Below are positions 11,058 through 34,600 of a DNA stretch of 64,000 nucleotides, one piece after another; position 1 is the stretch's first letter, and each line of letters starts with the position of its first letter. This DNA is from Utricularia gibba. Taxonomy: Eukaryota; Streptophyta; Magnoliopsida; Lamiales; Lentibulariaceae. The position numbers and the translations under genes were made by a program. The stretch lies in assembly GCA_002189035.1 (NCBI GenBank), contig NEEC01000197.1, positions 1 through 64,000 of the forward strand, read 5' to 3'. The notes beneath the pieces are model-generated. The model had not been told where the DNA came from, searched no databases, and worked only from the letters and a program-made list of their open reading frames with translations.

Positions 11058-12304
11058 GTGATGCATTTATCAACGTTGGGTTTTCGGCGGCTGCCTGAAT
11101 GGTTTTTCAAGCAATAGCTTGCCATTTTAAGGCGGTGCTGTCGTTGGCAGCTTTGTAAGGGCCCAAGGTTCGGTCTGGCTCCTGAGCCCAATCGGGTGCT
11201 ACTCGATGAAAATCGTGATGCATTTTTTGAAGTTAGGATGTCATGAGCACCCCAAATGGTTTTCTCAACAACCTGATTTATATTTGAGGAGGCGCTCTAG
11301 GCTGGCACTAGTATCGAGCAAATGGTCGAGTCGCGCTCTGGCCCATAGTCATTTGTAGCCCGGCCAAAAAAGTGATGCATTTATTAACGTTGGGTTTTCG
11401 GGCTGCCTACATGCTTTTTTCGAGGAAAAGTTGTCGTTTTTTGCGGGTGCTGTTGTTGGGAACTTCGTCCGGACCCAAGGTTCGGTCTGACTTCACAGCA
11501 CAATCCGATCCCATTCGACGAAAATCGTGACACCTTTATTGAAGTTAGGATCTCATGACCACCCCAAATGGTTTTTTCAACAGCATGCTTTACACTTGAC
11601 AAGGCGCTTTTGTGGGTCACCGAGATCGGGCCGGATTCGGGTCGGGCTTGAGCCCATAGTCAGCTGTAGCCCGGCAAAAGAAGTGATGCATTTATTAACG
11701 TTGGGTTGTCGGCGGCTGCCCACATGGTTTTTCAAGCAACAGCTTGCCATTTAAAGGCGGGTGCTGTCGTTGGGAGCTTTGTCCGGCCCGAGATTCGGTC
11801 TGGCTACTAAGCCCAATCGGGTCGCACTCGACGAAAATCGTAACGCATTTGATGTAGTTAGGATGTCATGAGAACCCCAATGGGTTTTCTCAACACTCTG
11901 CTATATATTTGAGAAGGCCCTCGGGGGTTTCGGGATTGGGCCAGAGGTCGGGTCGGGCTCAGGCCAATAGTCAGTTGTAGCCCGGAAAATAAGTGATGCA
12001 TTTATCAACGATGGGTTTTCGGCGGCTGCCTAAATGGTTTTTCAAGCAACAGCTTGCCGTTTTAAGGTGGGTGCTGTAGTTGGGAGCTTTGTCAGGGCCC
12101 GAGATTCGGTCTGGCTACTAAGCCCAATCGGGTCGTACTCGACGAAATCGTAATGCATTTGCTTTAGTTAGGATGTCATGAGAACCCCAATGGGTTTTCT
12201 CAACACTCTGCTATATATTTGAGAAGGCGCTCTCGGGGGTTTCGGGATTGGGCCAGAGGTCGGGTCGGGCTCAGGCCAATAGTCAGTTGTAGCCCGGAAA
12301 ATAA
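11058..12304. repeat. Unit A-B-C-D', first part of a clean 7-mer
   Basis: Monomers start at 11058, 11372, 11683 and 11993. With the next entry it gives a 2,180-bp seven-monomer unit, 11058-13237. B lacks CGG at GTTTTCGGGCTGCC. Confidence 0.87.
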
Positions 12305-13237
12305 GTGATGCATTTATCAACGATGGGTTTTCGGCGGCTGCCTAAATGGTTTTTCAAGCAATAGCTTGCCGTTTTAAGGCGTGCTGTCGTTGGCAGCTTT
12401 GTTAGGGCCCAAGGTTCGGTCTGGCTCCTGAGCCCAATCGGGTGCTACTCGATGAAAATCGTGATGCATTTGCTGAAGTTAGGATGTCATGAGCACCCCA
12501 AATGGTTTTCTCAACAACCTGATTTATATTTGAGGAGGCGCTCTAGGCGGGCACCAGTATCGAGCAAATGGTCGAGTCGCGCTCTGGCCCATAGTCATTT
12601 GTAGCCTGGCCAAAAAAGTGATGCATTTATTAACGTTGGGTTGTCGGCGGCTGCCCACATGGTTTTTCAAGCAACAGCTTGCCATTTAAAGGCGGGTGCT
12701 GTCGTTGGGAGCTTTGTCCGGCCCGAGATTCGGTCTGGCTACTAAGCCCAATCGGTCGCACTCGACGAAAATCGTAACGCATTTGCTGTAGTTAGGATGT
12801 CATGAGAACCCCAATGGGTTTTCTCAACACTCTACTTTATATTTCAGAAGGCGCTCTTGGGGGTTTCAGGATTGGGCCAGAGGTCGGGTCGGGCTCAGGC
12901 CATAGTCAGTTGGGCCCGGAAAATAAGTGATGCATTTATCAACGTTGGGTTTTCGGCGGCTGCCTAAATGGTTTTTCAAGCAACAGCTTGCCGTTTTAAG
13001 GTGGGTGCTGTAGTTGGGAGCTTTGTCAGGGCCCGAGATTCGGTCTGGCTACTAAGCCCAATCGGGTCGTACTCGACGAAATCGTAATGCATTTGCTTTA
13101 TTTAGGATGTCATGAGAACCCCAATGGGTTTTCTCAACACTCTACTTATATTTCAGAAGGCGCTCTTGGGGGTTTCGGGATTGGGCCAGAGGTCGGGTCG
13201 GGCTATGGCCCATAGTCAGTTGTAGCCCGGAAAATAA
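12305..13237. repeat. Trimer A'-C/D-D, second part of a 7-mer
   Basis: Monomers start at 12305, 12618 and 12927. It again carries GCCTGGCC at the A' end and TTTCAGG in C/D, so it is closely related to 10123-11057. Confidence 0.87.
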
Positions 13238-14486
13238 GTGATGCATTTATCAACGTTGGGTTTTCGGCGGCTGCCTGAATGGTTTTTCAAGCAATAGCTT
13301 GCCATTTTAAGGCGGGTGCTGTCGTTGGCAGCTTTGTAAGGGCCCAAGGTTCGGTCTGGCTCCTGAGCCCAATCGGGTGCTACTCGATGAAAATCGTGAT
13401 GCATTTTTTGAAGTTAGGATGTCATGAGCACCCCAAATGGTTTTCTCAACAACCTGATTTATATTTGAGGAGGCGCTCTAGGCTGGCACTAGTATCGAGC
13501 AAATGGTCGAGTCGTGCTCTGGCCCATAGTCATTTGTAGCCCGGCCAAAAAAGTGATGCATTTATTAACGTTGGGTTTTCGGCGGCTGCCTACATGCTTT
13601 TTTCGAGGAAAAGTTGTCGTTTTTTTGCGGGTGCTGTTGTTGGGAACTTCGTCCGGACCCAAGGTTCGGTCTGACTTCACAGCACAATCCGATCCCATTC
13701 GACGAAAATCGTGACACCTTTATTGAAGTTAGGATCTCATGACCACCCCAAATGGTTTTTTCAACAGCATGCTTTACACTTGACAAGCGCTTTTGTGGGT
13801 CACCGAGATCGGGCCGGATTCGGGTCGGGCTTGAGCCCATAGTCAGCTGTAGCCCGGCAAAAGAAGTGATGCATTTATTAACGTTGGGTTGTCGGCGGCT
13901 GCCCACATGGTTTTTCAAGCAACAGCTTGCCATTTAAAGGCGGGTGCTGTCGTTGGGAGCTTTGTCCGGCCCGAGATTCGGTCTGGCTACTAAGCCCAAT
14001 CGGGTCGCACTCGACGAAAATCGTAACGCATTTGATGTAGTTAGGATGTCATGAGAACCCCAATGGGTTTTCTCAACACTCTGTTATATTTGAGAAGGCG
14101 CTCGGGGGTTTCGGGATTGGGCCAGAGGTCGGGTCGGGCTCAGGCCAATAGTCAGTTGTAGCCCGGAAAATAAGTGATGCATTTATCAACGATGGGTTTT
14201 CGGCGGCTGCCTAAATGGTTTTTCAAGCAACAGCTTGCCGTTTTAAGGTGGGTGCTGTAGTTGGGAGCTTTGTCAGGGCCCGAGATTCGGTCTGGCTACT
14301 AAGCCCAATCGGGTCGTACTCGACGAAATCGTAATGCATTTGCTTTAGTTAGGATGTCATGAGAACCCCAATGGGTTTTCTCAACACTCTGCTATATATT
14401 TGAGAAGGCGCTCTCGGAGGGTTTCGGGATTGGGCCAGAGGTCGGGTCGGGCTCAGGCCAATAGTCAGTTGTAGCCCGGAAAATAA
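13238..14486. repeat. Unit A-B-C-D'
   Basis: Monomers start at 13238, 13553, 13866 and 14174. C h2 is shortened (CTGTTATATTTGAG, GGCGCTCGGGGG). A has GTCGTGCTCTGG, a C-to-T change. Confidence 0.87.
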
Positions 14487-15417
14487 GTGATGCATTTATC
14501 AACGATGGGTTTTCGGCGGCTGCCTAAATGGTTTTTCAAGCAATAGCTTGCCGTTTTTAAGGCGAGTGCTGTCGTTGGCAGCTTTGTTAGGGCCCAAGGT
14601 TCGGTCTGGCTCCTGAGCCCAATCGGGTGCTACTCGATGAAAATCGTGATGCATTTGCTGAAGTTAGGATGTCATGAGCACCCCAAATGGTTTTCTCAAC
14701 ACCTGATTTATATTTGAGGAGGCGCTCTAGGGGGCACCAGTATCGAGCAAATGGTCGAGTCGCGCTCTGGCCCATAGTCATTTGTAGCCGGCCAAAAAAG
14801 TGATGCATTTATTAACGTTGGGTTGTCGGCGGCTGCCCACATGGTTTTTCAAGCAACAGCTTGCCATTTAAAGGCGGGTGCTGTCGTTGGGAGCTTTGTC
14901 CGGCCCGAGATTCGGTCTGGCTACTAAGCCCAATCGGGTCGCACTCGACGAAAATCGTAACGCATTTGATGTAGTTAGGATGTCATGAGAACCCCAATGG
15001 GTTTTTTCAACACTCTGTTTATATTTCAGAAGGCGCTCTTGGGGGTTCGGATTGGGCCAGAGGTCGGGTCGGGCTCAGGCCATAGTCAGTTGTAGCCCGG
15101 AAAATAAGTGATGCATTTATCAACGATGGGTTTTCGGCGGCTGCCTAAATGGTTTTTCAAGCAACAGCTTGCCGTTTTAAGGTGGGTGCTGTAGTTGGGA
15201 GCTTTGTCAGGGCCCGAGATTCGGTCTGGCTACTAAGCCCAATCGGGTCGTACTCGACGAAATCGTAATGCATTTGCTTTAGTTAGGATGTCATGAGAAC
15301 CCCAATGGGTTTTCTCAACACTCTGCTATATATTTGAGAAGGCGCTCTGGGGGTTTCGGGATTGGGCCAGAGGTCGGGTCGGGCTCAGGCCATAGTCAGT
15401 TGTAGCCCGGAAAATAA
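14487..15417. repeat. Trimer A'-C/D-D'
   Basis: Monomers start at 14487, 14800 and 15108. The last monomer is D' (C-like end, CTATATATTTGAG) rather than D, so another A'-led unit follows immediately. Confidence 0.83.
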
Positions 15418-16665
15418 GTGATGCATTTATCAACGATGGGTTTTCGGCGGCTGCCTAAATGGTTTTTCAAGCAATAGCTTGCCGTTTTAAGGCGAGTGCT
15501 GTCGTTGGCAGCTTTGTTAGGGCCCAAGGTTCGGTCTGGCTCCTGAGCCCAATCGGTGCTACTCGATGAAATCGTGATGCATTTGCTGAAGTTAGGATGT
15601 CATGAGCACCCCAAATGGTTTTCTCAACAACCTGATTTATATTTGAGGAGGCGCTCTAGGCGGGCACCAGTATCGAGCAAATGGTCGAGTCGCGCTCTGG
15701 CCCATAGTCATTTGTAGCCTGGCCAAAAAAGTGATGCATTTATTAACGTTGGGTTGTCGGCGGCTGCCCACATGCTTTTTTCGAGGAAAAGTTGTCGTTT
15801 TTTTGCGGGTGCTGTTGTTGGGAACTTCGTCCGGACCCAAGGTTCGGTCTGACTTCACAGCACAATCCGATCCCATTCGACGAAAATCGTGACACCTTTA
15901 TTGAAGTTAGGATCTCATGACCACCCCAAATGGTTTTTTCAACAGCATGCTTTACACTTGACAAGGCGCTTTTGTGGGTCACCGAGATCGGGCCGGATTC
16001 GGGTCGGGCTTGAGCCCAAAGTCAGCTGTAGCCCGGCAAAAGAAGTGATGCATTTATTAACGTTGGGTTGTCGGCGGCTGCCCACATGGTTTTTCAAGCA
16101 ACAGCTTGCCATTTAAAGGCGGGTGCTGTCGTTGGGAGCTTTGTCCGGCCCGAGATTCGGTCTGGCTACTAAGCCCAATCGGGTCGCACTCGACGAAAAT
16201 CGTAACGCATTTGATGTAGTTAGGATGTCATGAGAACCCCAATGGGTTTTCTCAACACTCTGCTATATATTTGAGAAGGCGCCCTCGAGGGTTTCGGGAT
16301 TGGGCCAGAGGTCGGGTCGGGCTCAGGCCAATAGTCAGTTGTAGCCCGGAAAATAAGTGATGCATTTATCAACGATGGGTTTTCGGCGGCTGCCTAAATG
16401 GTTTTTCAAGCAACAGCTTGCCGTTTTAAGGTGGGTGCTGTAGTTGGGAGCTTTGTCAGGGCCCGAGATTCGGTCTGGCTACTAAGCCCAATCGGGTCGT
16501 ACTCGACGAAATCGTAATGCATTTGCTTTAGTTAGGATGTCATGAGAACCCCAATGGGTTTTCTCAACACTCTGCTTATATTTGAGAAGGCGCTCTAGGG
16601 TTTCGGGATTGGGCCAGAGGTCGGGTCGGGCTCAGGCCCATAGTCAGTTGTAGCCCGGAAAATAA
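15418..16665. repeat. Rearranged unit A'-C/B-C-D'
   Basis: Monomers start at 15418, 15731, 16045 and 16357. A B-like monomer is restored after A', but its first bases are C-type. Confidence 0.83.
15731..16044. repeat. Chimeric monomer C/B
   Basis: It starts with the C signature GGTTGTCGGCGGCTGCCCAC and switches at about 15776 to B (ATGCTTTTTTCGAGG), staying B to the end (GGCAAAAGAA). The switch lies within the shared CACATG/TACATG segment. Confidence 0.87.
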
Positions 16666-17600
16666 GTGATGCATTTATCAACGTGGGTTTTCGGCGGCTG
16701 CCTAAATGGTTTTTCAAGCAATAGCTTGCCGTTTTAAGGCGGTGCTGTCGTTGGCAGCTTTGTTAGGGCCCAAGGTTCGGTCTGGCTCCTGAGCCCAATC
16801 GGGTGCTACTCGATGAAAATCGTGATGCATTTTGAAGTTAGGATGTCATGAGCACCCAAATGGTTTTCTCAACAACCTGATTTATATTTGAGGAGGCGCT
16901 CTAGGCGGGCACCAGTATCGAGGCAAATGGTCGAGTCGCGCTCTGGCCCATAGTCATTTGTAGCCCGGCCAAAAAAGTGATGCATTTATTAACGTTGGGT
17001 TGTCGGCGGCTGCCCACATGGTTTTTCAAGCAACAGCTTGCCATTTAAAGGCGGGTGCTGTCGTTGGGAGCTTTGTCCGGCCCGAGATTCGGTCTGGCTA
17101 CTAAGCCCAATCGGGTCGCACTCGACGAAAATCGTAACGCATTTGCTGTAGTTAGGATGTCATGAGAACCCCAATGGGTTTTCTCAACACTCTGCTTTAT
17201 ATTTCAGAAGGCGCTCTTGGGGGGTTTCGGATTGGGCCAGAGGTCGGGTCGGGCTCAGGCCATAGTCAGTTGTAGCCCGGAAAATAAGTGATGCATTTAT
17301 CAACGTTGGGTTTTCGGCGGCTGCCTAAATGGTTTTTCAAGCAACAGCTTGCCGTTTTAAGGTGGGTGCTGTAGTTGGGAGCTTTGTCAGGGCCCGAGAT
17401 TCGGTCTGGCTACTAAGCCCAATCGGGTCGTACTCGACGAAATCGTAATGCATTTGCTTTAGTTAGGATGTCATGAGAACCCCAATGGGTTTTCTCAACA
17501 CTCTACTTTATATTTCAGAAGGCGCTCTTGGGGGGTTTCGGGATTGGGCCAGAGGTCGGGTCGGGCTATGGCCCATAGTCAGTTGTAGCCCGGAAAATAA
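16666..17600. repeat. Trimer A'-C/D-D
   Basis: Monomers start at 16666, 16977 and 17288. A' is shortened at its h2 start (GATGCATTTTGAAG), and one copy of the AGCAAATGG region has an extra G (GAGGCAAATGG). Confidence 0.85.
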
Positions 17601-19109
17601 GTGATGCATTTATCAACGTTGGGTTTTCGGCGGCTGCCTGAATGGTTTTTCAAGCAATAGCTTGCCATTTTAAGGCGGGTGCTGTCGTTGGCAGCTTTGT
17701 AAGGGCCCAAGGTTCGGTCTGGCTCCTGAGCCCAATCGGGTGCTACTCGATGAAAATCGTGATGCATTTTTTGAAGTTAGGATGTCATGAGCACCCCAAA
17801 TGGTTTTCTCAACAACCTGATTTATATTTGAGGAGGCGCTCTAGGCTGGCACTAGTATCGAGCAAATGGTCGAGTCGCGCTCTGGCCCATAGTCATTTGT
17901 AGCCCGGCCAAAAAGTGATGCATTTATTAACGTTGGGTTTTCGGCGGCTGCCTACATGCTTTTTTCGAGGAAAAGTTGTCGTTTTTTTGCGGGTGCTGTT
18001 GTTGGGAACTTCGTCCGGACCCAAGGTTCGGTCTGACTTCACAGCACAATCCGATCCCATTCGACGAAAATCGTGACACTTTATTGAAGTTAGGATCTCA
18101 TGACCACCCCAAATGGTTTTTTCAACAGCATGCTTTACACTTGACAAGGCGCTTTTGTGGGTCACCGAGATCGGGCCCGGATTCGGGTCGGGCTTGAGCC
18201 CAAAGTCAGCTGTAGCCCGGCAAAAGAAGTGATGCATTTATTAACGTTGGGTTGTCGGCGGCTGCCCACATGGTTTTTCAAGCAACAGCTTGCCATTTAA
18301 AGGCGGGTGCTGTCGTTGGGAGCTTTGTCCGGCCCGAGATTCGGTCTGGCTAAGCCCAATCGGGTCGCACTCGACGAAAATCGTAACGCATTTGATGTAG
18401 TTAGGATGTCATGAGAACCCCAATGGGTTTTCTCAACACTCTGCTATATATTTGAGAAGGCGCCCTCGGAGGGTTTCGGGATTGGGCCAGAGGTCGGGTC
18501 GGGCTCAGGCCAATAGTCAGTTGTAGCCCGGAAAATAAGTGATGCATTTATCAACGATGGGTTTTCGGCGGCTGCCTAAATGGTTTTTCAAGCAACAGCT
18601 TGCCGTTTTAAGGTGGGTGCTGTAGTTGGGAGCTTTGTCAGGGCCCGAGATTCGGTCTGGCTACTAAGCCCAATCGGGTCGTACTCGACGAAATCGTAAT
18701 GCATTTGCTTTAGTTAGGATGTCATGAGAACCCCAATGGGTTTTCTCAACACTCTGCTTATATTTGAAGGCGCTCTAGGGTTTCGGGATTGGGCCAGAGG
18801 TCGGGTCGGGCTCAGGCCAATAGTCAGTTGTAGCCCGGAAAATAAGTGATGCATTTATCAACGTGGGTTTCGGCGGCTGCCTAATGGTTTTTCAAGCAAC
18901 AGCTTGCCGTTTTAAGGCGGGTGCTGTCGTTGGGAGCTTTGTCAGGGCCCGAGATTCGGTCTGGCTCTAGCCCAATCGGGTCGTACTCGACGAAATCGTA
19001 ATGCATTTGGTTAGGATGTCATGAGAACCCCAATGGTTTTCTCAACACAATATTTGAGAAGGCGATTTCGGGTCGGGCTCTGGCCATAGTCATTGTAGCC
19101 CGGAAAAAA
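17601..19109. repeat. Unit A-B-C-D' followed by an eroded D
   Basis: Monomers start at 17601, 17915, 18229, 18539 and 18846. The fifth monomer is only 264 bp. Confidence 0.83.
18846..19109. repeat. Eroded D-like monomer (264 bp)
   Basis: Recognisable as D by CAACAGCTTGCCG and GTCGTACTCGACG, but about 50 bp are lost in several separate pieces (e.g. GCATTTGGTTAGG, CAACACAATATTTGAG, GGCGATTTCGGG). What remains nearly always matches the consensus in order, with few substitutions. Confidence 0.8.
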
Positions 19110-19362
19110 GTGATGCATTTATCAACGTGGGTTTTCGGCGGCTGCCTAAATGGTTTTGGCTTGCCGTTTTAAGGCGGTGCTGTGTTGGCAAAGGTTCGGT
19201 CTGAGCCCAATCGAAAAATCGTGATGCATTTTTGAAGTTAGGATGTCATGAGCACCCCAAATGGTTTTCTCAACAACCTGATTTATATTTGAGGAGGCGC
19301 TCTTATCGAGCAAATGGTCGAGTCGCGCTCTGGCCCATAGTCATTTGTAGCCGGCCAAAAAA
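19110..19362. repeat. Eroded A'-like monomer (253 bp)
   Basis: About 60 bp shorter than A'. Losses are scattered: GGTTTTGGCTTGCC, TTGGCAAAGGTTCGG, GAGCCCAATCGAAAAATC and CTCTTATCGAGC. It lies directly after an equally eroded D, so one event or one assembly problem probably affected 18846-19362 as a whole. Confidence 0.8.
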
Positions 19363-19984
19363 GTGATGCATTTATTAACGTTGGGTTGTCGGCGGCTGCC
19401 CACATGGTTTTTCAAGCAACAGCTTGCCATTTAAAGGCGGGTGCTGTCGTTGGGAGCTTTGTCCGGCCCGAGATTCGGTCTGGCTACTAAGCCCAATCGG
19501 GTCGCACTCGACGAAAATCGTAACGCATTTGCTGTAGTTAGGATGTCATGAGAACCCCAATGGGTTTTCTCAACACTCTACTTTATATTTCAGAAGGCGC
19601 TCTTGGGGGTTTCGGATTGGGCCAGAGGTCGGGTCGGGCTCAGGCCATAGTCAGTTGTAGCCCGGAAAATAAGTGATGCATTATCAACGTTGGGTTTTCG
19701 GCGGCTGCCTAAATGGTTTTTCAAGCAACAGCTTGCCGTTTTAAGGTGGGTGCTGTAGTTGGGAGCTTTGTCAGGGCCCGAGATTCGGTCTGGCTACTAA
19801 GCCCAATCGGGTCGTACTCGACGAAATCGTAATGCATTTGCTTTAGTTAGGATGTCATGAGAACCCCAATGGGTTTTCTCAACACTCTACTTTATATTTC
19901 AGAAGGCGCTCTTGGGGGGTTTCGGGATTGGGCCAGAGGTCGGGTCGGGCTATGGCCCATAGTCAGTTGTAGCCCGGAAAATAA
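19110..19984. repeat. Trimer A'(eroded)-C/D-D
   Basis: Monomers start at 19110, 19363 and 19673. The D start motif lacks one T (GCATTATCAACG). C/D and D are otherwise ordinary left-domain copies. Confidence 0.83.
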
Positions 19985-21234
19985 GTGATGCATTTATCAA
20001 CGTTGGGTTTTCGGCGGCTGCCTGAATGGTTTTTCAAGCAATAGCTTGCCATTTTAAGGCGGGTGCTGTCGTTGGCAGCTTTGTAAGGGCCCAAGGTTCG
20101 GTCTGGCTCCTGAGCCCAATCGGGTGCTACTCGATGAAATCGTGATGCATTTTTTGAAGTTAGGATGTCATGAGCACCCCAAATGGTTTTCTCAACAACC
20201 TGATTTATATTTGAGGAGGCGCTCTAGGCTGGCACTAGTATCGAGCAAATGGTCGAGTCGCGCTCTGGCCCATAGTCATTTGTAGCCCGGCCAAAAAAGT
20301 GATGCATTTATTAACGTTGGGTTTTCGGCGGCTGCCTACATGCTTTTTTCGAGGAAAAGTTGTCGTTTTTTTGCGGGTGCTGTTGTTGGGAACTTCGTCC
20401 GGACCCAAGGTTCGGTCTGACTTCACAGCACAATCCGATCCCATTCGACGAAAATCGTGACACCTTTATTGAAGTTAGGATCTCATGACCACCCCAAATG
20501 GTTTTTTCAACAGCATGCTTTACACTTGACAAGGCGCTTTTGTGGGTCACCGAGATCGGGCCGGATTCGGGTCGGGCTTGAGCCCAAAGTCAGCTGTAGC
20601 CCGGCAAAAGAAGTGATGCATTTATAACGTTGGGTTGTCGGCGGCTGCCCACATGGTTTTTCAAGCAACAGCTTGCCATTTAAAGGCGGGTGCTGTCGTT
20701 GGGAGCTTTGTCCGGCCCGAGATTCGGTCTGGCTACTAAGCCCAATCGGGTCGCACTCGACGAAAATCGTAACGCATTTGATGTAGTTAGGATGTCATGA
20801 GAACCCCAATGGGTTTTCTCAACACTCTGCTATATATTTGAGAAGGCGCCCTCGGAGGGTTTCGGGATTGGGCCAGAGGTCGGGTCGGGCTCAGGCCAAT
20901 AGTCAGTTGTAGCCCGGAAAATAAGTGATGCATTTATCAACGATGGGTTTTCGGCGGCTGCCTAAATGGTTTTTCAAGCAACAGCTTGCCGTTTTAAGGT
21001 GGGTGCTGTAGTTGGGAGCTTTGTCAGGGCCCGAGATTCGGTCTGGCTACTAAGCCCAATCGGGTCGTACTCGACGAAATCGTAATGCATTTGCTTTAGT
21101 TAGGATGTCATGAGAACCCCAATGGGTTTTCTCAACACTCTGCTTATATTTGAGAAGGCGCTCTTGGGGGTTTCGGGATTGGGCCAGAGGTCGGGTCGGG
21201 CTAGGCCAATAGTCAGTTGTAGCCCGGAAAATAA
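19985..21234. repeat. Unit A-B-C-D'
   Basis: Monomers start at 19985, 20299, 20613 and 20925. C lacks one T in its start (GCATTTATAACG). D' shows GGCTAGGCC. Confidence 0.87.
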
Positions 21235-22458
21235 GTGATGCATTTATCAACGTTGGGTTTTCGGCGGCTGCCTAAATGGTTTTTCAAGCAATAGCTTGCC
21301 GTTTTAAGGCGGTGCTGTCGTTGGCAGCTTTGTAGGGCCCAAGGTTCGGTCTGGCTCCTGAGCCCAATCGGTGCTACTCGATGAAAATCGTGATGCATTT
21401 TTTGAAGTTAGGATGTCATGAGCACCCCAAATGGTTTTCTCAACAACCTGATTTATATTTGAGGAGGCGCTCTAGGCGGGCACTAGTATCGAGCAAATGG
21501 TCGAGTCGCGCTCTGGCCCATAGTCATTTGTAGCCCGGCCAAAAAAGTGATGCATTTATTAACGTTGGGTTTCGGCGGCTGCCCACATGGTTTTTCAAGC
21601 AAAGCTTGCCATTTAAAGGCGGGTGCTGTCGTTGGGAGCTTTGTCCGGCCCGAGATTCGGTCTGGCTACTAGCCCAATCGGGTCGCACTCGACGAAAATC
21701 GTAACGCATTTTGTAGTTAGGATGTCATGAGAACCCCAATGGTTTTCTCAACACTCTTTTAGGCGCTCTTGGGGTTTCGGGATTGGGCCAGAGGTCGGGT
21801 CGGGCTCAGGCCAATAGTCAGTTGTAGCCCGGAAAATAAGTGATGCATTTATCAACGTTGGGTTTTCGGCGGCTGCCTAAATGGTTTTTCAAGCAACAGC
21901 TTGCCGTTTTAAAGTGGGTGCTGTAGTTGGGAGCTTTGTCAGGGCCCGAGATTCGGTCTGGCTACTAAGCCCAATCGGGTCGTACTCGACGAAATCGTAA
22001 TGCATTTGCTTTAGTTAGGATGTCATGAGAACCCCAATGGGTTTTCTCAACACTCTGCTATATATTTGAGAAGGCGCAGGGTTTCGGGATTGGGCCAGAG
22101 GTCGGGTCGGGCTCAGGCCAATAGTCAGTTGTAGCCCGGAAAATAAGTGATGCATTTATCAACGATGGGTTTTCGGCGGCTGCCTAAATGGTTTTTCAAG
22201 CAACAGCTTGCCGTTTTAAGGTGGGTGCTGTAGTTGGGAGCTTTGTCAGGGCCCGAGATTCGGTCTGGCTACTAAGCCCAATCGGGTCGTACTCGACGAA
22301 ATCGTAATGCATTTGCTTTAGTTAGGATGTCATGAGAACCCCAATGGGTTTTCTCAACACTCTACTTTATATTTCAGAAGGCGCTCTTGGGGGGTTTCGG
22401 GATTGGGCAGAGGTCGGGTCGGGCTATGGCCCATAGTCAGTTGTAGCCCGGAAAATAA
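21235..22458. repeat. Unit A'-C/D-D'-D, last A'-led unit
   Basis: Monomers start at 21235, 21547, 21840 and 22147. C/D is shortened to 293 bp (CACTCTTTTAGGCGC). D at 22147 already has the right-domain form, D'-type start and D-type end. Downstream the tetramer takes over. Confidence 0.84.
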
Positions 22459-23707
22459 GTGATGCATTTATCAACGTTGGGTTTTCGGCGGCTGCCTGAA
22501 TGGTTTTTCAAGCAATAGCTTGCCATTTTAAGGCGGGTGCTGTCGTTGGCAGCTTTGTAAGGGCCCAAGGTTCGGTCTGGCTCCTGAGCCCAATCGGGTG
22601 CTACTCGATGAAAATCGTGATGCATTTTTTGAAGTTAGGATGTCATGAGCACCCCAAATGGTTTTCTCAACAACCTGATTTATATTTGAGGAGGCGCTCT
22701 AGGCTGGCACTAGTATCGAGCAAATGGTCGAGTCGCTCTGGCCCATAGTCATTTGTAGCCCGGCCAAAAAAGTGATGCATTTATTAACGTTGGGTTTTCG
22801 GCGGCTGCCTACATGCTTTTTTCGAGGAAAAGTTGTCGTTTTTTTGCGGGTGCTGTTGTTGGGAACTTCGTCCGGACCCAAGGTTCGGTCTGACTTCACA
22901 GCACAATCCGATCCCATTCGACGAAATCGTGACACCTTTATTGAAGTTAGGATCTCATGACCACCCCAAATGGTTTTTTCAACAGCATGCTTTACACTTG
23001 ACAAGGCGCTTTTGTGGGTCACCGAGATCGGGCCGGATTCGGGTCGGGCTTGAGCCCAAAGTCAGCTGTAGCCCGGCAAAAGAAGTGATGCATTTATTAA
23101 CGTTGGGTTGTCGGCGGCTGCCCACATGGTTTTTCAAGCAACAGCTTGCCATTTAAAGGCGGGTGCTGTCGTTGGGAGCTTTGTCCGGCCCGAGATTCGG
23201 TCTGGCTACTAAGCCCAATCGGGTCGCACTCGACGAAAATCGTAACGCATTTGATGTAGTTAGGATGTCATGAGAACCCCAATGGGTTTTCTCAACACTC
23301 TGCTATATATTTGAGAAGGCGCCTCGGAGGGTTCGGGATTGGGCCAGAGGTCGGGTCGGGCTCAGGCCAATAGTCAGTTGTAGCCCGGAAAATAAGTGAT
23401 GCATTTATCAACGATGGGTTTTCGGCGGCTGCCTAAATGGTTTTTCAAGCAACAGCTTGCCGTTTTAAGGTGGGTGCTGTAGTTGGGAGCTTTGTCAGGG
23501 CCCGAGATTCGGTCTGGCTACTAAGCCCAATCGGGTCGTACTCGACGAAATCGTAATGCATTTGCTTTAGTTAGGATGTCATGAGAACCCCAATGGGTTT
23601 TCTCAACACTCTACTTTATATTTCAGAAGGCGCTCTTGGGGGTTTCGGGATTGGGCCAGAGGTCGGGTCGGGCTATGGCCCATAGTCAGTTGTAGCCCGG
23701 AAAATAA
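22459..23707. repeat. Tetramer A-B-C-D, first of the right domain
   Basis: Monomers start at 22459, 22772, 23085 and 23396. A lacks CG at GAGTCGCTCTGG. D is the fused form. Confidence 0.9.
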
Positions 23708-24944
23708 GTGATGCATTTATCAACGTGGGTTTTCGGCGGCTGCCTAAATGGTTTTTCAAGCAATAGCTTGCCATTTTAAGGCGGTGCTGTCGTTGGCAGC
23801 TTTGTAAGGGCCCAAGGTTCGGTCTGGCTCCTGAGCCCAATCGGGTGCTACTCGATGAAAATCGTGATGCATTTTTTGAAGTTAGGATGTCATGAGCACC
23901 CCAAATGGTTTTCAACAACCTGATTTATTTGAGGAGGCGCTCTAGGCTGGCACTAGTATCGAGCAAATGGTCGAGTCGCGCTCTGGCCCATAGTCATTTG
24001 TAGCCCGGCCAAAAAAGTGATGCATTTATTAACGTTGGGTTTTCGGGCTGCCTACATGCTTTTTGAGGAAAAGTTGTCGTTTTTTGGCGGGTGCTGTTGT
24101 TGGGAACTTCGTCCGGACCCAAGGTTCGGTCTGACTTCACAGCACAATCCGATCCCATTCGACGAAAATCGTGACACCTTTATTGAAGTTAGGATCTCAT
24201 GACCACCCCAAATGGTTTTTTCAACAGCATGCTTTACACTTGACAAGGCGCTTTTGTGGGTCACCTCGGGCCGGATTCGGTCGGCTTGAGCCCAAAGTCA
24301 GCTGTAGCCCGGCAAAAGAAGTGATGCATTTATTAACGTTGGGTTGTCGGCGGCTGCCCACATGGTTTTTCAAGCAACAGCTTGCCATTTAAAGGCGGGT
24401 GCTGTCGTTGGGAGCTTTGTCCGGCCCGAGATTCGGTCTGGCTACTAAGCCCAATCGGGTCGCACTCGACGAAAATCGTAACGCATTTGATGTAGTTAGG
24501 ATGTCATGAGAACCCCAATGGGTTTTCTCAACACTCTGCTATATATTTGAGAAGGCGCCTCGGAGGGTTTCGGGATTGGGCCAGAGGTCGGGTCGGGCTC
24601 AGGCCATAGTCAGTTGTAGCCCGGAAAATAAGTGATGCATTTATCAACGATGGGTTTTCGGCGGCTGCCTAAATGGTTTTTCAAGCAACAGCTTGCCGTT
24701 TTAAGGTGGGTGCTGTAGTTGGGAGCTTTGTCAGGGCCCGAGATTCGGTCTGGCTACTAAGCCCAATCGGGTCGTACTCGACGAAATCGTAATGCATTTG
24801 CTTTAGTTAGGATGTCATGAGAACCCCAATGGGTTTTCTCAACACTCTACTTTATATTTCAGAAGGCGCTCTTGGGGGGTTTCGGGATTGGGCCAGAGGT
24901 CGGGTCGGGCTATGGCCCATAGTCAGTTGTAGCCCGGAAAATAA
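23708..24944. repeat. Tetramer A-B-C-D
   Basis: Monomers start at 23708, 24017, 24321 and 24632. A keeps A'-like bases (GCCTAAATGG, GGCGGTGCTG) and lacks TC and TA in h2 (GGTTTTCAACAACC, TTTATTTGAGG). B is 304 bp, with GTCACCTCGGGCC. Confidence 0.88.
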
Positions 24945-26194
24945 GTGATGCATTTATCAACGTTGGGTTTTCGGCGGCTGCCTGAATGGTTTTTCAAGCA
25001 ATAGCTTGCCATTTTAAGGCGGGTGCTGTCGTTGGCAGCTTTGTAAGGGCCCAAGGTTCGGTCTGGCTCCTGAGCCCAATCGGGTGCTACTCGATGAAAA
25101 TCGTGATGCATTTTTTGAAGTTAGGATGTCATGAGCACCCCAAATGGTTTTCTCAACAACCTGATTTATATTTGAGGAGGCGCTCTAGGCTGGCACTAGT
25201 ATCGAGCAAATGGTCGAGTCGCGCTCTGGCCCATAGTCATTTGTAGCCCGGCCAAAAGTGATGCATTTATTAACGTTGGGTTTTCGGCGGCTGCCTACAT
25301 GCTTTTTGAGGAAAAGTTGTCGTTTTTTTGCGGGTGCTGTTGTTGGGAACTTCGTCCGGACCCAAGGTTCGGTCTGACTTCACAGCACAATCCGATCCCA
25401 TTCGACGAAAATCGTGACACCTTTATTGAAGTTAGGATCTCATGACCACCCCAAATGGTTTTTTCAACAGCATGCTTTACACTTGACAAGGCGCTTTTGT
25501 GGGTCACCGAGATCGGGCCGGATTCGGGTCGGGCTTGAGCCCAAAGTCAGCTGTAGCCCGGCAAAAGAAGTGATGCATTTATTAACGTTGGGTTGTCGGC
25601 GGCTGCCCACATGGTTTTTCAAGCAACAGCTTGCCATTTAAAGGCGGGTGCTGTCGTTGGGAGCTTTGTCCGGCCCGAGATTCGGTCTGGCTACTAAGCC
25701 CAATCGGGTCGCACTCGACGAAAATCGTAACGCATTTGATGTAGTTAGGATGTCATGAGAACCCCAATGGGTTTTCTCAACACTCTGCTATATATTTGAG
25801 AAGGCGCCCTCGGAGGGTTTCGGGATTGGGCCAGAGGTCGGGTCGGGCTCAGGCCATAGTCAGTTGTAGCCCGGAAAATAAGTGATGCATTTATCAACGA
25901 TGGGTTTTCGGCGGCTGCCTAAATGGTTTTTCAAGCAACAGCTTGCCGTTTTAAGGTGGGTGCTGTAGTTGGGAGCTTTGTCAGGGCCCGAGATTCGGTC
26001 TGGCTACTAAGCCCAATCGGGTCGTACTCGACGAAATCGTAATGCATTTGCTTTAGTTAGGATGTCATGAGAACCCCAATGGGTTTTCTCAACACTCTAC
26101 TTTATATTTCAGAAGGCGCTCTTGGGGGGTTTCGGGATTGGGCCAGAGGTCGGGTCGGGCTATGGCCCATAGTCAGTTGTAGCCCGGAAAATAA
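24945..26194. repeat. Tetramer A-B-C-D
   Basis: Monomers start at 24945, 25258, 25570 and 25882. B has CTTTTTGAGG. Close to consensus. Confidence 0.9.
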
Positions 26195-27438
26195 GTGATG
26201 CATTTATCAACGTTGGGTTTTCGGCGGCTGCCTGAATGGTTTTTCAAGCAATAGCTTGCCATTTTAAGGCGGGTGCTGTCGTTGGCAGCTTTGTAAGGGC
26301 CCAAGGTTCGGTCTGGCTCCTGAGCCCAATCGGGTGCTACTCGATGAAAATCGTGATGCATTTTTGAAGTTAGGATGTCATGAGCACCCCAAATGGTTTT
26401 CTCAACAACCTGATTTATATTTGAGGAGGCGCTCTAGGCTGGCACTAGTATCGAGCAAATGGTCGAGTCGCGCTCTGGCCCATAGTCATTTGTAGCCCGG
26501 CCAAAAAGTGATGCATTTATTAACGTTGGGTTTTCGGGCTGCCTACATGCTTTTTGAGGAAAAGTTGTCGTTTTTTTGCGGGTGCTGTTGTTGGGAACTT
26601 CGTCCGGACCCAAGGTTCGGTCTGACTTCACAGCACAATCCGATCCCATTCGACGAAAATCGTGACACCTTTATTGAAGTTAGGATCTCATGACCACCCC
26701 AAATGGTTTTTTCAACAGCATGCTTTACACTTGACAAGGCGCTTTTGTGGGTCACCGAGATCGGGCCGGATTCGGGTCGGGCTTGAGCCCAAAGTCAGCT
26801 GTAGCCCGGCAAAAGAAGTGATGCATTTATTAACGTTGGGTTGTCGGCGGCTGCCACATGGTTTTTCAAGCAACAGCTTGCCATTTAAAGGCGGGCTGTC
26901 GTTGGGAGCTTTGTCCGGCCGAGATTCGGTCTGGCTACTAAGCCCAATCGGGTCGCACTCGACGAAAATCGTAACGCATTTGATGTAGTTAGGATGTCAT
27001 GAGAACCCCAATGGGTTTTCTCAACACTCTGCTATATATTTGAGAAGGCGCCCTCGGAGGGTTTCGGGATTGGGCCAGAGGTCGGGTCGGGCTCAGGCCA
27101 TAGTCAGTTGTAGCCCGGAAAATAAGTGATGCATTTATCAACGATGGGTTTTCGGCGGCTGCCTAAATGGTTTTTCAAGCAACAGCTTGCCGTTTTAAGG
27201 TGGGTGCTGTAGTTGGGAGCTTTGTCAGGGCCCGAGATTCGGTCTGGCTACTAAGCCCAATCGGGTCGTACTCGACGAAATCGTAATGCATTTGCTTTAG
27301 TTAGGATGTCATGAGAACCCCAATGGGTTTTCTCAACACTCTACTTTATATTTCAGAAGGCGCTCTTGGGGGGTTTCGGGATTGGGCCAGAGGTCGGGTC
27401 GGGCTATGGCCCATAGTCAGTTGTAGCCCGGAAAATAA
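26195..27438. repeat. Tetramer A-B-C-D
   Basis: Monomers start at 26195, 26508, 26818 and 27126. B lacks CGG at TTTTCGGGCTGCC. C has three small losses (CTGCCACATGG, GGCGGGCTGTCG, CCGGCCGAG). Confidence 0.9.
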
Positions 27439-28686
27439 GTGATGCATTTATCAACGTTGGGTTTTCGGCGGCTGCCTGAATGGTTTTTCAAGCAATAGCT
27501 TGCCATTTTAAGGCGGGTGCTGTCGTTGGCAGCTTTGTAAGGGCCCAAGGTTCGGTCTGGCTCCTGAGCCCAATCGGGTGCTACTCGATGAAAATCGTGA
27601 TGCATTTTTTGAAGTTAGGATGTCATGAGCACCCAAATGGTTTTCTCAACAACCTGATTTATATTTGAGGAGGCGCTCTAGGCTGGCACTAGTATCGAGC
27701 AAATGGTCGAGTCGCGCTCTGGCCCATAGTCATTTGTAGCCCGGCCAAAAAAGTGATGCATTTATTAACGTTGGGTTTTCGGCGGCTGCCTACATGCTTT
27801 TTTCGAGGAAAAGTTGTCGTTTTTTTGCGGGTGCTGTTGTTGGGAACTTCGTCCGGACCCAAGGTTCGGTCTGACTTCACAGCACAATCCGATCCCATTC
27901 GACGAAAATCGTGACACCTTTATTGAAGTTAGGATCTCATGACCACCCCAAATGGTTTTTTCAACAGCATGCTTTACACTTGACAAGGCGCTTTTGTGGG
28001 TCACCGAGATCGGGCCGGATTCGGGTCGGGCTTGAGCCCAAGTCAGCTGTAGCCCGGCAAAAGAAGTGATGCATTTATTAACGTTGGGTTGTCGGCGGCT
28101 GCCCACATGGTTTTTCAAGCAACAGCTTGCCATTTAAAGGCGGGTGCTGTCGTTGGGAGCTTTGTCCGGCCCGAGATTCGGTCTGGCTACTAAGCCCAAT
28201 CGGGTCGCACTCGACGAAAATCGTAACGCATTTGATGTAGTTAGGATGTCATGAGAACCCCAATGGGTTTTCTCAACACTCTGCTATATATTTGAGAAGG
28301 CGCCCTCGGAGGGTTTCGGGATTGGGCCAGAGGTCGGGTCGGGCTCAGGCCAATAGTCAGTTGTAGCCCGGAAAATAAGTGATGCATTTATCAACGATGG
28401 GTTTTCGGCGGCTGCCTAAATGGTTTTTCAAGCAACAGCTTGCCGTTTTAAGGTGGGTGCTGTAGTTGGGAGCTTTGTCAGGGCCGAGATTCGGTCTGGC
28501 TACTAAGCCCAATCGGGTCGTACTCGACGAAATCGTAATGCATTTGCTTTAGTTAGGATGTCATGAGAACCCCAATGGGTTTTCTCAACACTCTTTATAT
28601 TTCAGAAGGCGCTCTTGGGGGTTTCGGGATTGGGCCAGAGGTCGGGTCGGGCTATGGCCCATAGTCAGTTGTAGCCCGGAAAATAA
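27439..28686. repeat. Tetramer A-B-C-D
   Basis: Monomers start at 27439, 27753, 28066 and 28379. A has AGCACCCAAATGG. D is shortened at CACTCTTTATATTTCAG. Confidence 0.9.
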
Positions 28687-29308
28687 GTGATGCATTTATC
28701 AACGTGGGTTTTCGGCGGCTGCCTAAATGGTTTTTCAAGCAATAGCTTGCCATTTTAAGGCGGTGCTGTCGTTGGCAGCTTTGTAGGGCCCAAGGTTCGG
28801 TCTGGCTCCTGAGCCCAATCGGGTGCTACTCGATGAAAATCGTGATGCATTTTTTGAAGTTAGGATGTCATGAGCACCCCAAATGGTTTTCTCAACAACC
28901 TGATTTATATTTGAGGAGGCGCTCTAGGCTGGCACTAGTATCGAGCAAATGGTCGAGTCGCGCTCTGGCCCATAGTCATTTGTAGCCCGGCCAAAAAGTG
29001 ATGCATTTATTAACGTTGGGTTTTCGGCGGCTGCCTACATGCTTTTTGAAGGAAAAGTTGTCGTTTTTTGCGGGTGCTGTTGTTGGGAACTTTGTCCGGA
29101 CCCAAGGTTCGGTCTGACTTCACAGCACAATCCGATCCCATTCGACGAAAATCGTGATACCTTTATTGAAGTTAGGATCTCATGACCACCCCAAATGGTT
29201 TTTTCAACAGCATGCTTTACACTTGACAAGGCGCTTTTGTGGGTCACCGAGATCGGGCCGGATTCGGGTCGGGCTTGAGCCCAAGTCAGCTGTAGCCCGG
29301 CAAAAGAA

Positions 29309-29597
29309 GTGATGCATTTATTAACGTTGGGTTGTCGGCGGCTGCCCACATGGTTTTTCAAGCAACAGCTTGCCATTTAAGCCCGCCCACCCCCGAGATT
29401 CGGTCTGGCTACTAAGCCCAATCGGGTCGCACTCGACGAAAATCGTAATGCATTTGTTGTAGTTAGGATGTCATGAGAACCCCAATGGTTTTCTCAACAC
29501 TCTGCTATATATTTGAGAGGCGCTCTTGGGGGGTTTCGGATTGGGCCAGAGGTCGGGTCGGGCTCAGGCCCATAGTCAGTTGTAGCCCGGAAAATAA
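29309..29597. repeat. C'/D monomer with internal replacement (289 bp)
   Basis: It begins as C and is C' at the h2 start. Between GCCATTTAA and CCCGAGATTCGG about 35 consensus bases are replaced by a short C-rich string. The tail shifts to D-like bases. Confidence 0.85.
29381..29392. other. Short non-array insertion or junction scar
   Basis: GCCCGCCCACCC occupies the place of the normal AGGCGGGTGCTG-to-CCGG segment. I do not see it elsewhere on this strand. Its complement, GGGTGGGCGGGC, loosely resembles the array's GGTGGGTGC/GGCGGGTGC, so a tiny inverted piece or template-switch repair is possible. Confidence 0.6.
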
Positions 29598-30852
29598 GTG
29601 ATGCATTTATCAACGTTGGGTTTTCGGCGGCTGCCTGAATGGTTTTTCAAGCAATAGCTTGCCATTTTAAGGCGGGTGCTGTCGTTGGCAGCTTTGTAAG
29701 GGCCCAAGGTTCGGTCTGGCTCCTGAGCCCAATCGGGTGCTACTCGATGAAAATCGTGATGCATTTTTTGAAGTTAGGATGTCATGAGCACCCCAAATGG
29801 TTTTCTCAACAACCTGATTTATATTTGAGGAGGCGCTCTAGGCTGGCACTAGTATCGAGCAAATGGTCGAGTCGCGCTCTGGCCCATAGTCATTTGTAGC
29901 CCGGCCAAAAAAGTGATGCATTTATTAACGTTGGGTTTTCGGCGGCTGCCTACATGCTTTTTTCGAGGAAAAGTTGTCGTTTTTTTGCGGGTGCTGTTGT
30001 TGGGAACTTCGTCCGGACCCAAGGTTCGGTCTGACTTCACAGCACAATCCGATCCCATTCGACGAAAATCGTGACACCTTTATTGAAGTTAGGATCTCAT
30101 GACCACCCCAAATGGTTTTTTCAACAGCATGCTTTACACTTGACAAGGCGCTTTTGTGGGTCACCGAGATCGGGCCGGATTCGGGTCGGGCTTGAGCCCA
30201 TAGTCAGCTGTAGCCCGGCAAAAGAAGTGATGCATTTATTAACGTTGGGTTGTCGGCGGCTGCCCACATGGTTTTTCAAGCAACAGCTTGCCATTTAAAG
30301 GCGGGTGCTGTCGTTGGGAGCTTTGTCCGGCCCGAGATTCGGTCTGGCTACTAAGCCCAATCGGGTCGCACTCGACGAAAATCGTAACGCATTTGATGTA
30401 GTTAGGATGTCATGAGAACCCCAATGGGTTTTCTCAACACTCTGCTATATATTTGAGAAGGCGCCCTCGGAGGGTTTCGGGATTGGGCCAGAGGTCGGGT
30501 CGGGCTCAGGCCAATAGTCAGTTGTAGCCCGGAAAATAAGTGATGCATTTATCAACGATGGGTTTTCGGCGGCTGCCTAAATGGTTTTTCAAGCAACAGC
30601 TTGCCGTTTTAAGGTGGGTGCTGTAGTTGGGAGCTTTGTCAGGGCCCGAGATTCGGTCTGGCTACTAAGCCCAATCGGGTCGTACTCGACGAAATCGTAA
30701 TGCATTTGCTTTAGTTAGGATGTCATGAGAACCCCAATGGGTTTTCTCAACACTCTACTTTATATTTCAGAAGGCGCTCTTGGGGGGTTTCGGGATTGGG
30801 CCAGAGGTCGGGTCGGGCTATGGCCCATAGTCAGTTGTAGCCCGGAAAATAA
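29598..30852. repeat. Tetramer A-B-C-D, near consensus
   Basis: Monomers start at 29598, 29913, 30227 and 30540 (315, 314, 313 and 313 bp). D still has the older AATGGG. Confidence 0.92.
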
Positions 30853-32100
30853 GTGATGCATTTATCAACGTTGGGTTTTCGGCGGCTGCCTGAATGGTTT
30901 TTCAAGCAATAGCTTGCCATTTTAAGGCGGGTGCTGTCGTTGGCAGCTTTGTAAGGGCCCAAGGTTCGGTCTGGCTCCTGAGCCCAATCGGGTGCTACTC
31001 GATGAAAATCGTGATGCATTTTTTGAAGTTAGGATGTCATGAGCACCCCAAATGGTTTTCTCAACAACCTGATTTATATTTGAGGAGGCGCTCTAGGCTG
31101 GCACTAGTATCGAGCAAATGGTCGAGTCGCGCTCTGGCCCATAGTCATTTGTAGCCCGGCCAAAAAAGTGATGCATTTATTAACGTTGGGTTTTCGGCGG
31201 CTGCCTACATGCTTTTTTCGAGGAAAAGTTGTCGTTTTTTTGCGGGTGCTGTTGTTGGGAACTTCGTCCGGACCCAAGGTTCGGTCTGACTTCACAGCAC
31301 AATCCGATCCCATTCGACGAAAATCGTGACACCTTTATTGAAGTTAGGATCTCATGACCACCCCAATGGTTTTTTCAACAGCATGCTTACACTTGACAAG
31401 GCGCTTTTGTGGGTCACCGAGATCGGGCCGGATTCGGGTCGGGCTTGAGCCCAAGTCAGCTGTAGCCCGGCAAAAGAAGTGATGCATTTATTAACGTTGG
31501 GTTGTCGGCGGCTGCCCACATGGTTTTTCAAGCAATAGCTTGCCATTTAAAGGCGGGTGCTGTCGTTGGGAGCTTTGTCCGGCCCGAGATTCGGTCTGGC
31601 TACTAGCCCAATCGGGTCGCACTCGACGAAAATCGTAACGCATTTGATGTAGTTAGGATGTCATGAGAACCCCAATGGTTTTCTCAACACTCTGCTATAT
31701 ATTTGAGAAGGCGCCCTCGGAGGGTTTCGGGATTGGGCCAGAGGTCGGGTCGGGCTCAGGCCAATAGTCAGTTGTAGCCCGGAAATAAGTGATGCATTTA
31801 TCAACGATGGGTTTTCGGCGGCTGCCTAAATGGTTTTTCAAGCAACAGCTTGCCGTTTTAAGGTGGGTGCTGTAGTTGGGAGCTTTGTCAGGCCCGAGAT
31901 TCGGTCTGGCTACTAAGCCCAATCGGGTCGTACTCGACGAAATCGTAATGCATTTGCTTTAGTTAGGATGTCATGAGAACCCCAACGGGTTTTCTCAACA
32001 CTCTACTTTATATTTCAGAAGGCGCTCTTGGGGGGTTTCGGGATTGGGCCAGAGGTCGGGTCGGGCTATGGCCCATAGTCAGTTGTAGCCCGGAAAATAA
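30853..32100. repeat. Tetramer A-B-C-D, first with D variant AACGGG
   Basis: Monomers start at 30853, 31168, 31479 and 31789. B lacks one A and one T (CCCCAATGG, GCTTACAC). The D variant CCCAACGGG first appears here, near 31985. Confidence 0.92.
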
Positions 32101-33348
32101 GTGATGCATTTATCAACGTTGGGTTTTCGGCGGCTGCCTGAATGGTTTTTCAAGCAATAGCTTGCCATTTTAAGGCGGGTGCTGTCGTTGGCAGCTTTGT
32201 AAGGGCCCAAGGTTCGGTCTGGCTCCTGAGCCCAATCGGGTGCTACTCGATGAAAATCGTGATGCATTTTTTGAAGTTAGGATGTCATGAGCACCCAAAT
32301 GGTTTTCTCAACAACCTGATTTATATTTGAGGAGGCGCTCTAGGCTGGCACTAGTATCGAGCAAATGGTCGAGTCGCGCTCTGGCCCATAGTCATTTGTA
32401 GCCCGGCCAAAAAAGTGATGCATTTATTAACGTTGGGTTTTCGGCGGCTGCCTACATGCTTTTTTCGAGGAAAAGTTGTCGTTTTTTTGCGGGTGCTGTT
32501 GTTGGGAACTTCGTCCGGACCCAAGGTTCGGTCTGACTTCACAGCACAATCCGATCCCATTCGACGAAAATCGTGACACCTTTATTGAAGTTAGGATCTC
32601 ATGACCACCCCAAATGGTTTTTTCAACAGCATGCTTTACACTTGACAAGGCGCTTTTGTGGGTCACGAGATCGGGCCGGATTCGGGTCGGGCTTGAGCCC
32701 AAGTCAGCTGTAGCCCGGCAAAAGAAGTGATGCATTTATTAACGTTGGGTTGTCGGCGGCTGCCCACATGGTTTGTCAAGCAATAGCTTGCCATTTAAAG
32801 TCGGGTGCTGTCGGGGAGCTTTGTCCGGCCCGAGATTCGGTCTGGCTACTAAGCCCAATCGGGTCGCACTCGACGAAAATCGTAACGCATTTGATGTAGT
32901 TAGGATGTCATGAGAACCCCAATGGGTTTTCTCAACACTCTGCTATATATTTGAGAAGCGCCCTCGGAGGGTTTCGGGATTGGGCCAGAGGTCGGGTCGG
33001 GCTCAGGCCAATAGTCAGTTGTAGCCCGGAAAATAAGTGATGCATTTATCAACGATGGGTTTTCGCGGCTGCCTAAATGGTTTTTCAAGCAACAGCTTGC
33101 CGTTTTAAGGTGGGTGCTGTAGTTGGGAGCTTTGTCAGGGCCCGAGATTCGGTCTGGCTACTAAGCCCAATCGGGTCGTACTCGACGAAATCGTAATGCA
33201 TTTGCTTTAGTTAGGATGTCATGAGAACCCCAATGGGTTTTCTCAACACTCTACTTTATATTTCAGAAGGCGCTCTTGGGGGGTTTCGGGATTGGGCCAG
33301 AGGTCGGGTCGGGCTATGGCCCATAGTCAGTTGTAGCCCGGAAAATAA
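32101..33348. repeat. Tetramer A-B-C-D, first with C variant GTTTGTC
   Basis: Monomers start at 32101, 32415, 32727 and 33037. C carries GTTTGTCAAGCAATAGC and AAAGTCGGG for the first time. D keeps AATGGG. Confidence 0.92.
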
Positions 33349-34600
33349 GTGATGCATTTATCAACGTTGGGTTTTCGGCGGCTGCCTGATGGTTTTTCAA
33401 GCAATAGCTTGCCATTTTAAGGCGGGTGCTGTCGTTGGCAGCTTTGTAAGGGCCCAAGGTTCGGTCTGGCTCCTGAGCCCAATCGGGTGCTACTCGATGA
33501 AAATCGTGATGCATTTTTTGAAGTTAGGATGTCATGAGCACCCCAAATGGTTTTCTCAACAACCTGATTTATATTTGAGGAGGCGCTCTAGGCTGGCACT
33601 AGTATCGAGCAAATGGTCGAGTCGCGCTCTGGCCCATAGTCATTTGTAGCCCGGCCAAAAAAGTGATGCATTTATTAACGTTGGGTTTTCGGCGGCTGCC
33701 TACATGCTTTTTTCGAGGAAAAGTTGTCGTTTTTTTGCGGGTGCTGTTGTTGGGAACTTCGTCCGGACCCAAGGATCGGTCTGACTTCACAGCACAATCC
33801 GATCCCATTCGACGAAAATCGTGACACCTTTATTGAAGTTAGGATCTCATGACCACCCCAAATGGTTTTTTCAACAGCATGCTTTACACTTGACAAGGCG
33901 CTTTTGTGGGTCACCGAGATCGGGCCGGATTCGGGTCGGGCTTGAGCCCAAAGTCAGCTGTAGCCCGGCAAAAGAAGTGATGCATTTATTAACGTTGGGT
34001 TGTCGGCGGCTGCCCACATGGTTTGTCAAGCAATAGCTTGCCATTTAAAGTCGGGTGCTGTCGTTGGGAGCTTTGTCCGGGCCGAGATTCGGTCTGGCTA
34101 CTAAGCCCAATCGGGTCGCACTCGACGAAAATCGTAACGCATTTGATGTAGTTAGGATGTCATGAGAACCCCAATGGGTTTTCTCAACACTCTGCTGCTA
34201 TATATTTGAAGGCGCCCTCGGAGGGTTTCGGGATTGGGCCAGAGGTCGGGTCGGGCTCAGGCCAATAGTCAGTTGTAGCCCGGAAAATAAGTGATGCATT
34301 TATCAACGATGGGTTTTCGGCGGCTGCCTAAATGGTTTTTCAAGCAACAGCTTGCCGTTTTAAGGTGGGTGCTGTAGTTGGGAGCTTTGTCAGGGCCCGA
34401 GATTCGGTCTGGCTACTAAGCCCAATCGGGTCGTACTCGACGAAATCGTAATGCATTTGCTTTAGTTAGGATGTCATGAGAACCCCAACGGGTTTTCTCA
34501 ACACTCTACTTTATATTTCAGAAGGCGCTCTTGGGGGGTTTCGGGATTGGGCCAGGTCGGTCGGGCTATGGCCCATAGTCAGTTGTAGCCCGGAAAATAA
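33349..34600. repeat. Tetramer A-B-C-D
   Basis: Monomers start at 33349, 33663, 33977 and 34291. A lacks one A (GCCTGATGG). B has AAGGATCGG. C has a local duplication (CTCTGCTGCTATATATTTG). D is AACGGG. Confidence 0.92.

Follow-up and report, generated by a model that had tools for sequence, protein, structure and literature searches.

Nested sequence layers and a separate switch of unit organisation in a higher-order repeat satellite array of Utricularia gibba

Background

Where a satellite array switches from one order of monomers to another, does the switch mark the front at which a newer higher-order repeat (HOR) displaces an older one? The question is raised by the stretch analysed here (the window, 64,000 nucleotides), which comprises bases 1-64,000 of a contig of about 79.5 kb (C47) that consists, end to end, of a 313-bp satellite only. 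A preliminary description had placed a sharp change of higher-order structure near 22.46 kb and had read it as the front between an older HOR on the left and a newer, expanding HOR on the right. The comparison that suggests itself is with human alpha-satellite, which is organised in multi-monomer HORs, contains hybrid monomers that arose by unequal crossover, and shows nested layers with the youngest in the interior. The assembly that holds C47 counts 516 contigs (100 Mb), of which C1 to C4 are chromosome-sized (8.5, 6.2, 5.3 and 3.8 Mb), and four putatively entire chromosomes have been reported for the PacBio assembly of U. gibba (PMC8333044).

Results and discussion

The array and its satellite family

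C47 was split into 256 monomers, mostly 306-315 bp in length, and clustering of these yielded four types (1-4, corresponding to A-D in the preliminary description) plus subtypes. The consensus sequences of the four types lie 8-23% apart, whereas the 4-mers within the sequence layers described below are only 0.10-0.33% apart: the array is a HOR satellite. Within 20-26 kb we found no Rfam family and no open reading frame of at least 150 aa. A loose 26-base pattern recovered 19,124 copies of the 313-bp family genome-wide (~6 Mb), against 0 for the reversed control; among the matches listed, exact matches to the pattern are first seen at C34, with none on C1-C33.

A second monomer found genome-wide (M, 315 bp), which served as outgroup, fills the sampled parts of C34, C37, C50, C52 and C56 and diverges by 5-8% within contigs. 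The C47 satellite belongs to the same superfamily and has the same monomer length, but M is 17-21% diverged from types 1-4 and its arrays are mostly monomeric; C52 shows a weak dimer periodicity, and C50 has a pentamer periodicity. In a tree rooted on M, in which some nodes are weakly supported, types 3 and 4 fall within the type-1 lineage, and a dimer 1*-2* of contig C438 lies near the base of both lineages.

Two organisations and the junction between them

The sharp change of structure proved real. The change point in subtype composition is the monomer starting at 22,131, adjoining the unit boundary at 22,443, with a log-likelihood gain of 39.6 against a maximum of 14.7 in 500 shuffles of the unit order. 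None of the 20 units to the left of 22,443 is a canonical 1a-2a-3a-4a unit and 37 of the 46 to the right are, in agreement with the runs of A-B-C-D with few exceptions that had been described for the right side. A pure chance mix of 3-mer and 4-mer units without real domains, for which the few exceptions on both sides might speak, is refuted by the shuffle test and by these counts, and is practically impossible. The domains and the features within them are listed in Table 1.

Table 1. Domains, layers and irregular units of the array, in positions of the window
Feature	Position	Strand	Composition and remarks	Basis
Irregular left block (alpha)	1-10,107	+	8-mer-like run (1721-4203), 1a-2b-3a-4a units, 4/1 fusion monomer 1c	monomer clustering
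7-mer HOR domain	10,108-22,442	+	1a-2a-3a-4b-1b-3b-4a; ends in 1b-3c-4b-4a	clustering, collinearity with C109
4-mer HOR domain	22,443-64,000	+	1a-2a-3a-4a, unit of 1.25 kb; continues to the end of C47 (79,476)	clustering, change-point test
Refined breakpoint interval	23,332-23,612	+	mostly inside monomer 4 (23,380-23,691)	pairwise alignment with C440, C441, C109
Layer R1	22,443-30,836	+	4-mers with ancestral alleles only	0.13% from left-hand trimers
Layer R2	30,837-43,501	+	derived 4:T216C and 3:T65G/G91T appear; ~54% derived calls	allele calls
Layer R3 (core)	43,502-64,000	+	adds 2:CA179-180TG and mostly 2:T129A; ~88% derived over 43.5-79.5 kb	allele calls
3-mer unit	28,671-29,581	+	last monomer a 3-to-4 hybrid (expected deletion product)	monomer-type comparison
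5-mer unit	39,596-40,996	+	1a-2a-3a-4b-4; 4b a 4-to-3 hybrid, final monomer only 163 bp (truncated)	monomer-type comparison
5-mer unit	44,754-46,268	+	1a-2a-3a-4b-4a; 4-to-3 hybrid (expected duplication product)	clustering, monomer-type comparison
5-mer unit	56,433-57,961	+	1a-2a-3a-4b-4a; 4-to-3 hybrid (expected duplication product)	clustering, monomer-type comparison

The earlier picture of the left side, in which A-B-C-D' alternates with A'-led units that mostly lack B, holds for 10.1-22.4 kb, the domain of the 7-mer (~2.19 kb), where these units are A'-C'-D, but not for 1.7-10.1 kb, which contains mainly 4-mers with special subtypes, most units keeping monomer 2 (1b-2b-3a-4a, 1a-2b-3a-4a and others), and which includes an 8-mer-like run, 1a-2a-3a-4b-1b-2b-3a-4a, at 1721-4203. 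A single HOR for the left side was considered and ruled out: the pattern is a mosaic of 7-mer, 8-mer and irregular units with a repeated block of roughly 20 kb. This beta-alpha block shows in the recurrence of 1b-3-4b-4a at 476 and at 21,219, and contig C109 carries beta followed by alpha. The first 15 kb of C47 (1-15 kb) are collinear with C109:7.2-22.2 kb (from position 7198 of C109 on; 0.1-0.4% substitutions), and at ~13.5-22.6 kb C47 contains another copy, beta', of the sequence at C109:1-9 kb (0.56-0.76% substitutions). The 7-mer also makes up much of C440, C441 and C442 and parts of C109.

Alignment of C47 with the left-type contigs C440, C441 and C109 revealed 0 substitutions over 22,407-23,323, followed by a few differences at 23,324-23,331 that resemble an effect of indel alignment. 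The first difference in monomer type is found at 23,613, inside monomer 4; from there on the C47 monomer has the 3' end of 4a and the homologous left-type contigs have the (3-like) 3' end of 4b. As C47 is unchanged with respect to three left-block contigs until ~23.33-23.61 kb, the true breakpoint lies about 1 kb to the right of 22.46 kb, and its simplest reading would be that a monomer of subtype 4b crossed over with one of subtype 4a. The junction of beta' with 4-mers is seen on C47 alone. On C109, C440 and C441 beta is followed by alpha: there the 8-mer block comes after the block with 1b-3-4b-4a at its end, and on C47 the second copy of this block is followed by 4-mers.

The restriction of the junction to C47, the frequent residual indels and the unplaced state of the satellite could point to an artefact of assembly from noisy long reads, either through a misjoin of two satellite loci or through a collapse. 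We consider this improbable in view of the substitution-level continuity with the left-type contigs through 22,407-23,323, an error rate that makes no step exactly at the junction, and comparable switches of organisation within C438. The excess of private indels that had been noticed on the left does exist (2.0 private deletions per monomer against 0.9-1.4), declining gradually along C47, but does not serve as a sign of age. The left-hand private indels are mostly of 1 bp, with a ratio of deletions to insertions of ~8:1, and 54% of the single-base deletions lie in runs of three or more, which hold 28% of the bases; such mostly 1-bp, deletion-heavy and homopolymer-biased changes are probably long-read consensus errors, and as a measure of age they were ruled out. 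The starts of C1-C3 carry long TTTAGGG telomere tracts, broken at irregular distances, probably by further consensus errors of the assembly.

Sequence layers within the 4-mer domain

Five sites carry derived alleles (3:T65G, 3:G91T, 4:T216C, 2:T129A and 2:A180G), four of which are polarised by the other monomer types and M. Among the first five contigs studied these alleles occur in the right domain of C47 only, with 0 in ~55-96 copies per site elsewhere. Derived calls make up a fraction of 0.00 in R1 (22.4-30.8 kb), 0.54 in R2 (30.8-43.5 kb) and 0.88 farther right (8 runs versus 20.5 expected; Spearman 0.73, p 1e-8), and the derived variants are nested, absent outside and concentrated in the interior, as in a layered expansion. 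Because these nested, polarised alleles are absent on the left, the core, deep in the right domain, would be the youngest sequence layer. The word GTTTGTCAAGCAATAGCTTGCCATTTAAAGTCGGG is specific to the core layer. The TG pair in monomer 2, which agrees with types 1, 4 and M, might represent a conversion tract. The core, otherwise derived, is interrupted at 51,286-52,684 by an irregular unit that has ancestral alleles and includes a partial monomer of 190 bp, and a similar broken unit is found on C140. The 4a monomers of the right domain carry an A35 allele that is otherwise common in 4b and 1b, and the ancestor of this domain could be either a 4-mer or an 8-mer.

The 1a-2a-3a trimers that both sides share allow a direct comparison across the switch. 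Those of the left and of 22.4-30.8 kb differ by 0.13%, which equals the within-group value, and those of the left and of R1 are each 0.6% away from the core. A boundary between identity blocks is therefore absent at the organisational boundary: the trimers show no step at 22.4 kb and the alleles step at ~31-33 and 43.5 kb, so that the switch of organisation and the steps of sequence age are separate features.

Hybrid monomers and the origin of the units

The special monomers of the left side are, by the distribution of their type-specific letters, hybrids that probably arose by crossover. At the sites that separate types 3 and 4, monomer 4b reads as type 4 in the first 18 and as type 3 in nearly all of the last 10, and the chance probability of a perfect two-block partition of those sites is ~3e-7; 3b has a type-2-like start and a 3' end that is largely the converse of 4b, and 1c is a 4/1 fusion. 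As these special monomers combine parts of the 4-mer types, the 7-mer is, in its structure, a derivative of the 4-mer. Within the 4-mer domain, the 3-mers (a second one, again ending in a 3/4 hybrid, lies at 68.9 kb of C47) and the 5-mers correspond to the two reciprocal products that a misaligned crossover of monomers 3 and 4 would be expected to yield.

These observations bear on the proposal that an older left-hand HOR was displaced by a newer, expanding right-hand HOR with its front at 22.46 kb. The regular right-hand units and the derived alleles of the right interior, which are missing on the left, agree with it, and the deep right is indeed likely to be youngest; yet the shared trimers differ across 22.4 kb no more than within each side, and the allele steps follow only 8-20 kb later. 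Nor does the left qualify as the older HOR: besides being made from hybrids of the 4-mer types, the 7-mers on C441 and C442 are only 0.13-0.31% apart and thus as homogeneous as the core 4-mers (0.29%). A displacement front at the switch is therefore unlikely, albeit somewhat less so than an artefact of assembly.

Layers on other contigs

Outside C47, monomer 3 is found in its core form on C140, C438, C490, C491 and C492. C490 and C492, oriented as C47, run from ancestral 4-mers to 4:C and then 3:G..T, followed on C492 by 2:TG, and a stretch of C140, where 4:C is present from the start, acquires 3:G..T together with 2:TG, a compatible order. C438 changes from partly ancestral to core and to ancestral again, with more ancestral alleles flanking the core on both sides; for two alleles its order differs, 2:TG preceding 3:G..T. 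The similar order on C140, C438, C490 and C492 shows that the layering extends beyond a single contig, although they may represent one locus in overlapping or redundant assemblies or in different haplotypes and are therefore not counted as independent events. Beyond its layers C438 contains a 10-mer zone, 1x-2-3-4-1-4'-1-4'-1-4', in which 1x-2-3-4 is followed by three 1-4' dimers, and then an irregular zone and a homogeneous array of the dimer 1*-2*; in reverse-strand coordinates the 10-mer and the dimer array lie at ~38-57 kb and 64.5-75.4 kb, respectively.

Taken as a whole, the switch on C47 is probably (we estimate a probability of roughly 0.78) an internal junction in a locus-specific HOR array shaped by unequal crossing-over and by recurrent local amplification. 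A 4-monomer unit 1-2-3-4 would have been rearranged by misaligned crossovers and fusions among types 3, 4, 1 and 2 to give the 8-mer, the 7-mer and, on another contig, the 10-mer, several of which would have been amplified locally. Near 23.5 kb a crossover within monomer 4 would have linked the left-type block beta' with the plain 4-mers. The nested new mutations deeper to the right suggest that the run of 4-mers was extended by amplification in successive rounds and that its youngest layer is the interior one.

Relation to centromeric satellites

A layered HOR satellite is of a known kind; the species and the locus are new. Like human alpha-satellite arrays, the C47 array combines multi-monomer HORs, hybrid monomers and nested layers that appear youngest in the interior. 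Unlike the 171-bp alpha satellite, its monomer measures 313 bp and is unrelated in length, and its HORs are short (4-, 7-, 8- and 10-mer, dimer). The array also differs from alpha-satellite in the absence of a CENP-B-box-like motif above chance: the monomers contain 10 one-mismatch matches to the nTTCGnnnnAnnCGGGn-like motif where 18.5 are expected by chance, and 0 exact ones. For plant centromeres, HOR blocks and a model of layered expansion have been described in the Brachypodium satellites CentBd/CentBs (PMC10910784). With these and with Arabidopsis CEN180 the C47 array shares the tandem satellite with locus-specific HOR blocks; it differs from them in that its layers can be read at the resolution of single alleles in one array.

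Is the satellite centromeric? The putative centromeres of U. gibba have been reported to be without satellite repeats (PMC8333044), and among the matches listed there is no exact satellite match on the chromosome-length contigs C1-C4. It is conceivable, but rather doubtful, that the 313-bp family (~19,000 monomers, ~6 Mb, on unplaced contigs among the matches listed) represents the actual centromeric satellite on some or all U. gibba chromosomes; if so, the C47 array would form the core of a centromere, with growth layers that can still be read and with rearranged HORs at its flanks. Some 6 Mb of a HOR-forming satellite are unplaced in this genome, for which putative centromeres without satellites were reported (PMC8333044).

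The array may be read as an unusually legible, stepwise record of the birth of HORs, from hybrid monomers through reciprocal 3-mers and 5-mers to 8-, 7- and 10-mers and nested mutations. It also illustrates that organisation and sequence age can change at different places along an array, which calls for caution where centromere 'fronts' are called from the order of units alone.
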